A DNA stretch of 64,000 nucleotides from Terriglobales bacterium (GTDB lineage: Bacteria > Acidobacteriota > Terriglobia > Terriglobales > Acidobacteriaceae), in the NCBI GenBank assembly GCA_025462725.1, contig JAOAPE010000005.1, forward strand, positions 248,001 through 312,000, read 5' to 3'. The notes below the pieces were generated by a model, which worked only from the letters and a program-made list of their open reading frames with translations, had not been told where the DNA came from and made no database searches. Below, in pieces: positions 11,053 through 20,425 of this stretch (the stretch's first letter is position 1; the number at the start of each line of letters is the position of its first letter). Both the position numbers and the translations under genes were made by a program.

Positions 11053-11339
11053 GTGCTCTTTCTCCAGTGGAAGTATAGCGTCCGGCAGGGAGTAAGATCG
11101 CGCGCTCTAGCTTCTCCAGTAAGAATCCCCTTCGCGATAATCAGCAAAAGATAGAGGGGGTCTTCCCTATTGGTTTTCCTACCCCCCCCCCCCCCCAATT
11201 TTCTAAAATATTGAAAACATTGGAGTTACTGGACCCGCTATCGGACATTGTTGCAAAATATCGGAGACAAAGGGAGTTACGTATCAAAATATAGAAAAGC
11301 AAGGGCTTAGGTGGCCGAGTTAGGATGTAAAGGAATCTG

Positions 11340-11356
11340 ATTAACTATTAGTTAAT
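11340..11356. promoter_or_regulatory. 17-bp perfect palindrome in element copy 1
   Basis: ATTAACTA-T-TAGTTAAT, with perfect 8-base arms. It lies about 12 bases downstream of the -10 of the minus-strand promoter, that is, around the predicted start of transcription, where an operator for a dimeric repressor would sit. Copy 2 has the same site with a compensated pair. Confidence 0.6.
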
Positions 11357-11368
11357 TACAGTAAAGAA

Positions 11369-11397
11369 AGTATATCTTATACTGGAGTGAGTGTCAA
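11369..11397 (-). promoter_or_regulatory. Sigma70-type promoter in element copy 1
   Basis: On the minus strand: TTGACA (11392-11397), 17-base spacer, TATACT (11369-11374). Both boxes and the spacing are near consensus, and they are kept in copy 2. It fires towards the TPR gene at 11052. Confidence 0.75.
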
Positions 11398-11404
11398 CGG
11401 GGAA

Positions 11405-11613
11405 GGTTGGAGATAAGCGCGAGTTGTGCGTGGCCGCCGGCAGGGTGGAAGTGATGCGTTTGATTTGCTTCCCAGCGATGAAGCTAATTTCATTCAGTCC
11501 CTACGCGACTTGCTCGGTGGGTGAGCGGCCGCGACTAGAGCCCAGTTGTGGAAACCACAGCTGGGGCATTCGGTCGTGTCGCAATCCCCACGTTAGCTTC
11601 CGCAAACATGGGG
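11405..11613. repeat. REP-like intergenic repeats
   Basis: Directly follows element copy 1 with a block GTGATGCGTTTGATTTG...CCCAGCG...GTCCCTACGCGACTTG that recurs after copy 2 and at 20225-20330. It ends with a hairpin CCCCACGTT...AACATGGGG (11586-11613, one mismatch) of the same family as 11640-11682 and 19141-19168. Confidence 0.65.
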
Positions 11614-11639
11614 AACCCGGCCATAATCAAAACATTTAT

Positions 11640-11682
11640 GCAGAAATTCCCACCTTAGCTTCGCAAAGGTGGGAATTTCTGC
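11640..11682 (-). terminator. Strong hairpin after the metallothionein gene
   Basis: A perfect 17-base stem GCAGAAATTCCCACCTT / AAGGTGGGAATTTCTGC with a 9-base loop AGCTTCGCA. On the minus strand it starts at the base following the metallothionein stop codon, so it probably ends or protects that short mRNA. There is no T run. The core CCCACNTTAGCTTCGC is a REP-type sequence found elsewhere in the window. Confidence 0.65.
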
Positions 11683-11826
11683 TTATTTTCTGCTGCATGT
11701 GCAACTGCTTGAGCAGGCGCAAGGATTGCAAGTGCAATTTGGTCCGCATTCGCATTTGTTGTCCTTGGCAGCAGCGACAGTGGAGCAGGAACATCCGTAG
11801 GTTTTGGTGCTTTTCTTCGTGGTCAT
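11683..11826 (-). CDS. Metallothionein-like Cys-rich small protein (47 aa)
   Basis: 47 residues with ten Cys arranged as five CxC pairs: C12-S-C14, C25-E-C27, C31-T-C33, C36-A-C38 and C42-T-C44. There is no signal peptide, so it is cytosolic. This density and pairing is that of metallothioneins, which bind Cu, Zn or Cd as thiolate clusters; it does not match the His-containing BmtA/SmtA pattern closely, so it may be a distinct family. GAGGAGA precedes the ATG with good spacing. An ECF-type promoter lies 35-70 bases upstream (11869-11894), and a strong hairpin follows the stop. It is divergent from the Cys-tailed sigma factor gene, which is the likely regulator. Confidence 0.8.
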   Translation of the reverse strand: MTTKKSTKTYGCSCSTVAAAKDNKCECGPNCTCNPCACSSSCTCSRK

Positions 11827-11868
11827 TTGAATCTCCTCTTAAAGGCTGATTGCCTTGTTATGCTCTAA

Positions 11869-11894
11869 GACGGGGAGTCCAGAAAAACCTTACA
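11869..11894 (-). promoter_or_regulatory. ECF-type promoter for the metallothionein gene
   Basis: On the minus strand: TGTAAGG (11888-11894), a 15-base spacer, then CGTC (11869-11872). The shape, an AAC/AAG-type -35 and a CGTC-type -10, is that of group 4 (ECF) sigma promoters rather than sigma70. It lies between the divergent sigma factor and metallothionein genes. Confidence 0.55.
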
Positions 11895-11908
11895 GTTGAT
11901 TTTTGAAT

Positions 11909-12472
11909 ATGCCAAAACCAAACCCAAAGACCATTCCTGCCGATGCTATGGAGCGGCTGATCGCCAGCCGGGAACAGTTTCTCGCGTACATCCAGCGTCG
12001 GGTAGGAAGTCGCGTTGTGGCAGAGGACATTCTGCAATCAGCATTTGTGCGCGGCGTGCAGCGCGGAGGCGAGATACGCGATTCGGAATCCGTTGTGGCT
12101 TGGTTTTACCGGGTTCTGGGGAATGCGGTAATCGATCATCACCGACACAACGCCGTTGAGAGCCGCGGGCTTGAAGAGTGGGCGAAGGAACTAGAAGTGC
12201 AAGTGGAGCCGAGTCCAGACAGCAAGCATGAGATTTGTGGATGCGTGAACAAGCTGCTTTCAGAGTTGAAACCGGAGTATCAGTCGGCGTTGAAGAGTGT
12301 GGAGATGGACGAGGCGTCGCTGAAGGAATATGCGGAGAGCTCGGGGATCACGGCGGAGAATGCGGCGGTGAGAGTGCATCGGGCGCGGCAGGCGCTTTTG
12401 AAACAGGTGCGCAATACGTGCGGCGCGTGCGCGGAACATATGTGCGTCGATTGCAATTGTCGGCACGACTAA
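11909..12472 (+). CDS. ECF sigma factor with Cys motifs, CorE-like
   Basis: 187 residues from the ATG at 11909 (an in-frame TTG lies 6 bases upstream; no clear Shine-Dalgarno for either). Sigma2 spans about 18-82 ('VAEDILQSAFVRGV', 'AWFYRVLGNAVIDHHR') and sigma4 about 113-166 ('SGITAENAAVRVHRARQALL'). Two Cys sets are extra: C110-G-C112 in the linker and C171-x2-C174-x4-C179-x2-C182-x-C184 in the tail. CorE of Myxococcus xanthus and relatives carry a linker CxC and a Cys-rich tail and sense metal directly, with no anti-sigma; none is encoded here either. It is followed by the TPMT gene after 19 bases. Confidence 0.88.
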   Translation: MPKPNPKTIPADAMERLIASREQFLAYIQRRVGSRVVAEDILQSAFVRGVQRGGEIRDSESVVAWFYRVLGNAVIDHHRHNAVESRGLEEWAKELEVQVEPSPDSKHEICGCVNKLLSELKPEYQSALKSVEMDEASLKEYAESSGITAENAAVRVHRARQALLKQVRNTCGACAEHMCVDCNCRHD

Positions 12473-12491
12473 TCTGGAAGGTTCCTTCATC

Positions 12492-13142
12492 ATGGAAACA
12501 AGTTTTTGGTTGCAGAAGTGGGAGAAGAACGAGATCGCTTTTCACCAGAAGGAAGCGAATCCGCTTCTGGTGAAATATTTCGCCGATCTTTCACTCGCGA
12601 AAGGCAGTCGGGTGTTTGTGCCGTTCTGCGGAAAGAGTCTTGATGTCGGCTGGTTGCTCTCGCAAGGCCATCGCGTAGCTGGAGCGGAGTTGAGCAAGCT
12701 GGCCGTTGAGCAATTGTTCGCTGGGCTTGGATGCGAGCCGGAAATCGTTCGCGCAGGTGAATTCGAACGGTACAGCGCAGCAGATATCGACATCTTTGTC
12801 GGCGACCTTTTCAATGTGTCCGGCGAGTTGCTCGGCGGAGTCGATGCGATTTATGACCGGGCAGCGTTAGTAGCGCTGCCGAATGGGATGCGAAATCAGT
12901 ACTCAAAGCATTTGACGGAGATCACGGGCAAAGCACCGCAGTTACTGATCACCTATGAGTACGACCAGAGCGTTATGGCGGGGCCTCCGTTTTCGGTCTG
13001 CAATGAGGAAGTGAAGAGGCTGTACCGAGACAGTTATGACTTGAGACTGGTTGCGAGTGAGGATGTCGCCGGGGGACTAAAGGGGCGATGCGCAGCGACA
13101 GAGCATGTCTGGATGCTAAGAACAGTAGTCGGTAGTCAGTAG
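12492..13142 (+). CDS. tpm: Thiopurine S-methyltransferase family protein (TPMT)
   Basis: 216 residues, the usual bacterial TPMT length. It has the family N-terminus 'FWLQKWEKNEIAFHQ', the SAM-binding stretch 'VPFCGKSLDVGWL' with 'GHRVAGAELS', and 'YDRAALVALP'. In bacteria such enzymes methylate reduced selenium and tellurium species and give tellurite resistance, which fits its place after a metal-type sigma factor. GGAAGG precedes the ATG. The last residues (VVGSQ) and the TAG stop are encoded by a heptamer repeat array, so the natural C-terminus seems to have been rewritten by the repeat. Confidence 0.9.
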   Translation: METSFWLQKWEKNEIAFHQKEANPLLVKYFADLSLAKGSRVFVPFCGKSLDVGWLLSQGHRVAGAELSKLAVEQLFAGLGCEPEIVRAGEFERYSAADIDIFVGDLFNVSGELLGGVDAIYDRAALVALPNGMRNQYSKHLTEITGKAPQLLITYEYDQSVMAGPPFSVCNEEVKRLYRDSYDLRLVASEDVAGGLKGRCAATEHVWMLRTVVGSQ

Positions 13143-13153
13143 TCGGTAGTCAG
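13126..13153. repeat. Heptamer repeat array (TAGTCGG/TAGTCAG)
   Basis: Four exact heptamers alternate: TAGTCGG, TAGTCAG, TAGTCGG, TAGTCAG. The array overlaps the 3' end of the TPMT gene and supplies its stop codon. Confidence 0.85.
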
Positions 13154-13170
13154 CGCGAGTTAGAGGTCTT

Positions 13171-13265
13171 GATTGGCCGCACGTTGCGTGAAGGCTCTGA
13201 CGCGGTGGTGACCCAGTTTGTGGGAGCGACGCTCCCCATTCGCGGCGCGAATGAAGGGGCCCCGC
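13171..13265. repeat. REP-like intergenic repeat
   Basis: Contains GGTGGTGACCCAG and the hairpin GGGAGCGACGCTCCC, with ATTCGCGGCGCGAATGAA and GGCCCCGCC. Related blocks occur at 18945, 20130 and 23079. It runs up to the ribosome binding site of the next gene. Confidence 0.55.
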
Positions 13266-13286
13266 CAGGCCAAACAAGGAAACGGC

Positions 13287-13886
13287 ATGATGAGCAAAGG
13301 ACGCATGGAGGCTTTCAGTGACGGGGTATTCGCCGTCATCATCACAATCATGGTGCTGGAAATGAAGTCCCCGCATGGAGCGGAGCTTGCGGCTCTACAG
13401 CCATTGGTTCCTGTATTTTCCAGTTATCTTCTAAGCTTCGTTTACTTGGGCATCTACTGGAACAACCATCATCACCTTCTGCAAGCTGCGCAACATGTCA
13501 CAGGCGGTGTCCTGTGGGCGAATCTACATCTGTTGTTTTGGCTGTCGCTCATCCCGTTTGCCACTGCTTGGATGGGGGAAAACCATTTTGCGCCATGGCC
13601 AGTGGCATTGTACGGAGCGGTGTTACTTCTGGCAGCTATCGATTACTACATTTTGACCAAGGTGCTGATCCAATGTCACGGAGCCGGCTCGACGCTTGCG
13701 GCATCGATCGGAAACGACAGGAAGGGCAGAATATCGATAGTGGTTTATGCAGCTGCGATCCCCTTGTCGCTGGGGCATCCATGGATCGCTTGCGGCGGTT
13801 ACGTGTTAGTCGCCATCATGTGGCTGCTTCCGGATCCCCGTATCGAGAAGACCTTAAAGCAAGGTCCTCAAGCGATAGCGCATTAA
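13287..13886 (+). CDS. TMEM175/DUF1211 family potassium channel-like membrane protein
   Basis: 199 residues from the ATG at 13287 (AAGGA 6 bases upstream). The first helix carries the family signature RMEAFSDGVFAVIITIM with the FSD motif at residues 10-12. About six transmembrane segments follow, matching the six-helix bacterial TMEM175 unit that assembles as a tetramer and conducts K+. Further family features are 'YWNNHHHLL' and 'WLLPDPRIE' near the end. It lies downstream of the TPMT gene on the same strand but is separated by 144 bases of repeats, so cotranscription is uncertain. Confidence 0.9.
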   Translation: MMSKGRMEAFSDGVFAVIITIMVLEMKSPHGAELAALQPLVPVFSSYLLSFVYLGIYWNNHHHLLQAAQHVTGGVLWANLHLLFWLSLIPFATAWMGENHFAPWPVALYGAVLLLAAIDYYILTKVLIQCHGAGSTLAASIGNDRKGRISIVVYAAAIPLSLGHPWIACGGYVLVAIMWLLPDPRIEKTLKQGPQAIAH

Positions 13887-18719: not shown

Positions 18720-18878
18720 GGTTTTCTACCCCCCCCCATTTTCTAAAATATTGAAAACATTGGAGTTGCTGGAGCCGTTATCGGACATTGCTGCAAAATA
18801 TCGGAAGCAAAGGAGTTACATATCAAAGTATAGAAACAGCAGGGCTTAGATGGCCGAGTCAGGATGTCAAGGAGCGTG

Positions 18879-18895
18879 ATTAACTTTAAGTTAAT
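18879..18895. promoter_or_regulatory. 17-bp perfect palindrome in element copy 2
   Basis: ATTAACTT-T-AAGTTAAT, with perfect 8-base arms. Compared with copy 1 the innermost pair is changed on both sides (A/T to T/A), so the symmetry is preserved. Confidence 0.6.
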
Positions 18896-18907
18896 CGTAT
18901 TGATATA

Positions 18908-18936
18908 AATATATCTATTTGCGGAGTGAGTGTCAA
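18908..18936 (-). promoter_or_regulatory. Sigma70-type promoter in element copy 2
   Basis: On the minus strand: TTGACA (18931-18936), 17-base spacer, TATATT (18908-18913). The first eight bases after TTGACA are the same as in copy 1 (CTCACTCC); the rest of the spacer has diverged while its length is kept. Confidence 0.7.
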
Positions 18937-18944
18937 GAGGATAA

Positions 18945-19168
18945 ATCGTTTGGCGCGCGTTGCGCAGGCCTGCGGCAGCAAGGAAGTGATGCGTTTCGAT
19001 TTGGTTCCCAGCGCTGAAGCGCTGGGCTAATTTCATTCTGTCCCTAAAGGGACTGGCTGGTGGTGATCAGGTGAGTTGGTGGGGAGGGGCGCCCGCACAC
19101 TCATTCGCTGCGCGAAGGAATGGGCGCACCCGGCGGAAGTGGCCCACGTTAGCTTCGCGAACGTGGCC
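18945..19168. repeat. REP-like intergenic repeats
   Basis: Contains GGCGCGCGTTGCGCAGGCC, GTGATGCGTTTCGATTTGG, the hairpin CCCAGCGCTGAAGCGCTGGG, GTCCCTAAAGGGAC, and at 19141-19168 the hairpin GGCCCACGTT/AACGTGGCC with loop AGCTTCGCG. Together with the preceding repeats it fills the 625-base gap before the TonB-like gene. Confidence 0.65.
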
Positions 19169-20129: not shown

Positions 20130-20425
20130 TTGGGATTGGCGCGCGTTGCGCGCGCCACCGGCAGGGTGGACGATTTGCCATCGAGGCAGGCGCGCTTTGG
20201 ATTGGCGCGCTTTGCGCGCAGGCCTCCGGCAGGGCGGAAGGGATGCGTTTGATTTGTTCCCAGCACTTACGTGCGGGGCTAAATAGTTCCGTCGCTGAAG
20301 GGACTCGCTCGGTGGTGATGCGGAAGGTTGGATCGGCAGCGGCGCTCGCCCACCCTAGCAAGCTAGGATGGGGCACCCGGCTTACCCACTCATTCGCTGC
20401 ACGAATGAACGGCGCACCCCGGCGG
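20130..20425. repeat. REP-like intergenic repeats
   Basis: Two tandem copies of GATTGGCGCGC(G/T)TTGCGCGC followed by a CCGGCAGG motif, then GGATGCGTTTGATTTGTTCCC, CAGCACTTACGTGCGGGG, GGGACTCGCTCGGTGGTGATG and the hairpin-like CCCACCCTAGC/GCTAGGATGGGG. This is the most complete copy of the intergenic repeat mosaic in the window. No gene. Confidence 0.65.

Follow-up and report, generated by a model that had tools for sequence, protein, structure and literature searches.

The window, a stretch of 64,000 nucleotides from a Terriglobales bacterium, appears to contain a two-gene copper-response module in which a CorE-like ECF sigma factor switches on a Cu(I)-binding metallothionein, a reading that we would put at about three chances in four. 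The pair formed by the sigma factor and the metallothionein-like gene is conserved and looks regulatory. In the mechanism that we envisage, the sigma factor would carry its own metal sensor, composed of a CxC pair in the sigma2-sigma4 linker and a five-Cys tail. A rise in intracellular copper would lead to metal binding at this sensor, and the sigma factor would then be able to use the promoter TGTAAGGTTT-N12-CGTC, the strict form of which would serve a single gene in this genome, the divergent metallothionein-like gene that it faces. Once induced, that gene would supply a 47-aa, ten-Cys product that is expected to bind metal, probably Cu(I), and sequestration would lower the amount of free metal and so may reset the sigma factor by feedback.

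A CorE-like sigma factor beside a small Cys-rich gene

The sigma factor (187 aa; 11909..12472 on the plus strand, with an ATG start and an in-frame TTG at 11903) scores above the cut-off for both Pfam Sigma70_r2 and Sigma70_r4_2. The original prediction had described a divergent ECF factor with a linker CxC, a five-Cys tail, and no anti-sigma factor, and each of these features was confirmed. The linker pair (CGC, Cys110 and Cys112) is located at 12236..12244 and the tail, C-x2-C-x4-C-x2-C-x-C with Cys 171, 174, 179, 182, and 184, at 12419..12460, both on the plus strand, and an anti-sigma domain is absent from the four adjoining genes scanned, which encode a TPR protein, a TPMT, a TMEM175 protein, and a CRP-type regulator. 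All seven cysteines are invariant in 30 sigma factors of the family, that of the window included, and across 94 aligned sigma factors Cys110 and Cys112 of the linker, together with Cys171 and Cys174 of the tail, are invariant and the other three tail cysteines are at least 90% conserved.

Alignment with CorE of Myxococcus xanthus, taken from an M. xanthus strain (L140), is gap-free over 178 aa at 48% identity. The L140 cysteines are at positions 120, 122, 181, 184, 189, 192, 194, and 206, the last six of which are the CorE positions published in PMC3107203, and the window's factor keeps every one of them except C206, so that five of the six tail cysteines are present with identical spacing. 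That paper recognizes CorE-like tails by four invariant cysteines (181, 184, 192, and 194), with which Cys171, 174, 182, and 184 of the window's factor align without a gap. The remaining tail residue, Cys179, is the equivalent of Cys189, which defines the copper-activation subtype: Cys189 is the main copper-activation residue of CorE, a C189A substitution nearly abolishes copper induction, and the residue occurs in 11 of 21 CorE-like factors, several of them in copper-gene neighbourhoods, with four Acidobacteria factors that have this tail already among those reported (PMC3107203). Cys206 has no equivalent in the window's factor, and we did not treat it as defining the CorE-like type because C206A behaves much like wild type in CorE (PMC3107203). 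Overall identity, the linker CxC, and the match of the tail cysteines thus support the CorE-type assignment that had been proposed, and direct sensing of metal by the window's sigma factor would follow by analogy. In an AlphaFold model built from the 94 sequences (mean pLDDT 70.6, pTM 0.45), the linker and tail are of low confidence, and for this reason no metal-site geometry was drawn from it.

The divergent small gene (11683..11826, minus strand) encodes, as predicted, a 47-residue protein with ten cysteines in five CxC pairs (CSC, CEC, CTC, CAC, CTC), and a ribosome binding site, AGAGGAG, is found six nt 5' of its ATG (11833..11839, minus strand). Directly 3' of the stop codon is a strong hairpin (11640..11682, minus strand; -31.7 kcal/mol, z -6.87), a putative transcript end or stabiliser without a classical T run. 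The protein is nearly invisible to curated models, reaching 15.3 bits against Pfam Metallothio_2, below the cut-off of 23, with no match in NCBIfam. Comparison of 33 such small proteins with Pfam gave three with one weak match each (E 0.0029, 0.019, and 0.041), two of these below cut-off and the third to Metallothio_PEC, and no NCBIfam model matched any of the 33 at E <= 0.1. Judged by a curated Pfam or NCBIfam model match, then, the small proteins fall outside the known metallothionein families.

Conservation of the pair and a common promoter motif

A single-sequence search of 200 family genomes with the 47-aa protein recovered only the query, and conservation of the small ORF was therefore read from the neighbourhoods of the ECF gene. 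In the same 200 genomes, searched for the sigma factor at E <= 1e-20 and with flanks of approximately 8 kb per side (shorter at contig ends), the sigma factor was detected in 29, the window's included, at 32 places. A small Cys-rich ORF adjoins the sigma gene at 19 of these loci and lies 1.4 kb away at one more (L049), 9 loci have a P-type ATPase right after the sigma gene, 3 have neither (the nearest relative in the family sample, L038, has neither nearby), and none has both. The ATPases of the nine loci cluster by BLAST, and one of them was scanned with Pfam. Seventeen of the 19 adjacent ORFs share the strand of the sigma gene and lie 5' of it; those of the window and of L043 are divergent.

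A second set comprised the best 80 of at least 369 confirmed genome-contig loci, with flanks of up to 5 kb (shorter at contig ends), and represents the nearest relatives rather than a census. The small ORF adjoins the sigma gene in 35 of these 80 loci (L132 was read by eye), divergently in 24 and on the same strand in 11. Divergent ORFs are found in Bryobacterales and other Acidobacteriota, in Nitrospira including Candidatus Nitrospira defluvii, and at two Myxococcota loci (L123 and L135). An adjacent small gene also occurs in the culturable Terriglobus albidus (L148), Edaphobacter lichenicola (L134 and L143), and Terracidiphilus gabretensis (L129). Together, the family loci and the best 80 of at least 369 yield 107 non-redundant loci, once L089, L118, L129, and L148 (duplicates of family loci) and L058 (the L057 peptide in another genome) are dropped. 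The small ORF is adjacent in 49 of the 107 and within 1.5 kb in 4, a P-type ATPase is present instead in 27, neither is present in 27, and both are present in none, an exclusion with a Fisher p of 1.9e-10 when kinship is ignored. Here, the class with neither gene includes L140 and L144, in which a P-type ATPase motif lies at about -4975, beyond the -4600 limit, as well as L078 and L093, with Cys-rich ORFs at +5.4 and +3.3 kb, respectively; L064 was scored as ATPase type from Pfam, and L090 was scored with the small ORF though its sigma-gene match contains a stop codon. "P-type ATPase" in the 80-locus set (18 loci) denotes the DKTGT motif alone and is no proof of copper specificity.

The presence of a small ORF beside the sigma gene is more than chance. 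With a filter of at least 14% Cys, at least two CxC, a maximum of 75 aa, an ATG, and an RBS-like sequence, 48 ORFs were retained in the intervals that start 400 bp before the sigma gene and stop where that gene ends (103 kb in total), against 6 in the other 1,143 kb of these loci. These 48 adjacent proteins are 21-53 aa long, with a mean of 39 aa and 25% Cys, and are of metallothionein-type composition (small, Cys in CxC pairs, few aromatics); 16 have 27 residues or fewer, and any F, W, or Y is found in 8.

A putative CorE-type ECF promoter, recognized as a motif match to TGTAAGGTTT-N12-CGTC (11869..11894, minus strand), faces the small gene. A dyad search recovered TGTAA-N17-CGTC upstream of small genes in 37 of 47 sequences, a set that spans three phyla but whose members are related, so that the count overstates independence; no dyad occurred more than 3 times in any of 20 mononucleotide shuffles. 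A relaxed form of the motif is located 5' of all 48 adjacent ORFs and of 5 of the 6 distant ones. Within the 4.33-Mb genome, TGTAAKG-N15-CGTC has a single match, at 11869-11894, versus nine for the reversed control, and a looser motif has 8 matches versus 54 for its control. When up to three mismatches are allowed, the window holds three matches, where chance alone would give 6.8, and the match at the small gene is the only perfect one. A sigma-70 promoter scan of 11300-13400 returned two sites, neither at the small gene. We infer from these sequence patterns that the motif is used by the window's sigma factor, and the conserved pairing and common motif together support the original prediction that this factor controls the metallothionein-like gene. 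The -35 element is situated some 15 bp 5' of the start codon of the sigma gene, and at this distance active transcription toward the small gene could reduce that of the sigma gene. In nine of nine family loci of the ATPase type, the motif is found near the 3' end of the sigma gene and 5' of the ATPase. Given its presence both before thionein genes and before ATPases, the target of these sigma factors appears to be a pump in some members of the family and a thionein in others. None of the 8 looser matches falls at the Cu-ATPase of the window's genome (contig C42), and the sigma factor and the Cu pump are therefore not linked in this genome.

Conservation extends to the small frame and its Cys pattern, as the original prediction required. 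In four groups of relatives, none of which contains the window's own small ORF, pN/pS is 0.20-0.27 and the Cys columns are all invariant, with both Cys codons used in 8/12, 2/7, 3/7, and 3/7 of these columns. Removal of the Cys columns raises the ratio to 0.40, 0.44, and 0.49 in three groups and to 1.03 in the fourth, which consists of two sequences that differ by few changes, and low pN/pS was accordingly dropped as a sign of constraint across the whole peptide. Constraint falls mostly on Cys, and other residues are only moderately constrained.

Such a pattern is also what would be expected of a Cys attenuator, and leader peptides can take the form of short Cys-rich ORFs 5' of a gene. A role of the small ORF as a Cys-codon leader or attenuator, without a functional protein product, finds further support in the 17 of 19 family ORFs that precede the sigma gene on its own strand. 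However, the ORF runs divergently from the sigma gene in the window, as it does in 24 of the 35 adjacent cases among the best 80 of at least 369 loci, and because of this orientation it cannot lead the sigma gene there. In addition, non-Cys residues are constrained in three of the four groups, and the ORF has its own promoter motif and ribosome binding site and, in the window, a 3' hairpin. We consider a leader peptide scarcely credible and reject it mainly on the divergent arrangement, in favour of a metallothionein-like protein.

A methyltransferase gene downstream of the sigma gene

A gene for a TPMT-family methyltransferase (12492..13142, plus strand) begins 19 nt after the ECF stop codon, as predicted, and its product scores 209.5 bits against Pfam TPMT and 262.8 bits against TIGR03840 (TMPT_Se_Te), above the cut-off of 223.2. 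A three-gene metalloid unit had been proposed, in which the sigma factor and metallothionein act together with a TPMT that volatilises Se/Te compounds. The spacing, the common strand, the TMPT_Se_Te score, and a co-transcription with the sigma gene that seems likely are all consistent with such a unit, but the wider comparison argues against it. No TPMT was detected by tblastn at E <= 1 in 111 other ECF loci (four of which repeat a place, and which include the best 80 of at least 369). The promoter motif in the window faces away from the gene, and no comparable motif points into the sigma-TPMT pair. Among the 200 family genomes, TIGR03840 is above cut-off in 5 and matched more weakly in 6 more, a TPMT gene is found beside the ECF gene in the window's genome only, and in two genomes (G140 and G148) that encode both proteins, the TPMT and sigma genes are on separate contigs. 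Genome G023, of the same genus, is without the sigma factor at E <= 1e-20, and its TPMT gene is located elsewhere, flanked by sequences that resemble window 22.1-23.1 kb on one side and 23.7-24.1 kb on the other. A three-gene Se/Te unit is thus very improbable, and the other loci, the family genomes, and the separate location in G023 lead us to reject the TPMT gene as a conserved member. Of the three-gene synteny originally envisaged, the sigma factor and small gene hold together in relatives; the TPMT gene is a neighbour and not a member of the conserved unit, although perhaps co-transcribed with the sigma gene.

Several other elements were noted in the surrounding DNA. Two tandem copies of CAGTAGTCGGTAGT (13123-13150) overlap the TPMT stop codon, and a TMEM175-type potassium channel gene (13290-13886) is located downstream of TPMT. 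Window stretches 11180-11356, 18729-18948, and 20282-20354 are matched by sequence on either side of the TPMT gene at the same-genus locus L150 and are perhaps a dispersed intergenic repeat, the first of them starting in a long C run. An Acido-Lenti-1 RNA (RF01687) scores above gathering at 19007-19054.

Probable copper sensing, possible horizontal transfer, and known systems

The original prediction had the sigma factor sensing a thiophilic metal or metalloid. The tail and the neighbours of relatives point more narrowly to copper, and the Se/Te part was not supported. Copper is suggested by the Cys189 subtype, by the relatives' neighbours, and by the ATPase of a plasmid relative. The one family ATPase scanned (L064) has Pfam HMBD, YHS, and E1-E2 domains, and other family loci have a multicopper oxidase upstream (L060), a cytochrome c (L067), or an AcrB-type pump (L061). 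ECF relatives were found in 23 of 72,556 plasmid records at E <= 1e-20 (32-37% identity among the matches listed), and on a Candidatus Manganitrophus plasmid an annotated copper-translocating P-type ATPase lies approximately 2.7 kb downstream of the relative. No copper gene is present beside the window's own sigma/small-gene pair. Loci L052 and L063 have in common a protein of 460-491 aa after the sigma gene, without a Pfam match.

Or, perhaps the same module responds to Zn or Cd. Both metals are bound by many metallothioneins, and the weak PDB profile matches of the small protein include wheat Ec and a Cd7 metallothionein. On the other hand, known bacterial Zn metallothioneins often use His, and any His is found in only 8 of the 48 small proteins. 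Metal specificity varies among CorE-like factors, CorE2 of M. xanthus being one that responds to Cd and to Zn (PMC8999054), but the window's tail has the equivalent of the main copper-activation residue of CorE (PMC3107203), and family relatives with the same tail adjoin P-type ATPases, one of them with HMBD and YHS, and in one case a multicopper oxidase. We regard Zn or Cd as unlikely and favour copper.

A quick ML tree of the 94 sigma factors implies at least five switches between metallothionein and ATPase neighbours. The window's factor is placed in a 35-member set (SH-aLRT 88, branch not starred), apart from most of its own family and together with Bryobacterales and Nitrospira that have small genes, eight ATPase-type Acidobacteriota, and L008 from the window's family. 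Starred branches place the Nitrospira clade inside Acidobacteriota, and the sigma factor was not found at E <= 1e-20 in four other genomes of the same genus (completeness 71-84%). Tree placement, the nesting of Nitrospira, and the same-genus absence together suggest horizontal transfer.

On balance, and with less assurance than for the module itself, we lean toward a broader picture in which these genes represent a family of tiny copper thioneins, as yet without a name (21-53 aa in our sample), that is barely visible to curated models and coupled to sensor sigma factors of the CorE-like type in Acidobacteriota, Nitrospirota, and Myxococcota. In the window's genome this would amount, in effect, to a one-promoter regulon, a minimal sensor-buffer loop that replaces the sigma-controlled pump of relatives and that has moved between phyla. 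If so, the CorE-like group would have targets of a second kind, a sequence for its promoter, and a minimal test system of two genes, and a set of tiny, presumed metal-binding proteins would come into view for which the curated models used here give weak matches or none. Small genes of this kind are present in Nitrospira, Ca. N. defluvii among them, and the way in which these bacteria handle copper may matter for nitrification.

According to PMC8103513, experimental study of CorE-like sigma factors has been confined to CorE and CorE2 of M. xanthus, and both are reviewed as studied members in PMC8999054. Among the open-access literature matches listed, we found no description of a CorE-metallothionein unit, and the CorE2 paper, the 2021 ECF re-classification, or the synteny figure of PMC3107203 may hold one.

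The small protein has a stretch similar to CxCGxxCxCNPCAC of wheat Ec (PDB 2kak), a plant Zn protein, with a weak score (E 0.21 for the single sequence and 0.0098 for the profile), and this likeness is probably convergent. The shortest relatives of the small protein resemble, by description, the Neurospora Cu-metallothionein, a fungal protein of approximately 25 aa with 7 Cys, in size and Cys content. MymT, the copper metallothionein of Mycobacterium, is by description also a very small Cys-rich protein, like that of the window, for which Cu(I) binding is proposed. It differs in being under the repressor RicR and not a sigma factor (PMC10141476). The closest parallel is CorE itself (CorE-like group, former ECF44), with which the window's factor has in common 48% identity, the linker CxC, the spacing of the tail cysteines, and the lack of a linked anti-sigma gene. 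The two differ in the C206 equivalent, which is missing here, and in their targets: CorE acts on cuoB, copA, copB, and a heavy-metal-domain gene (PMC3107203), whereas the only strict-motif target in the window's genome is the metallothionein-like gene.
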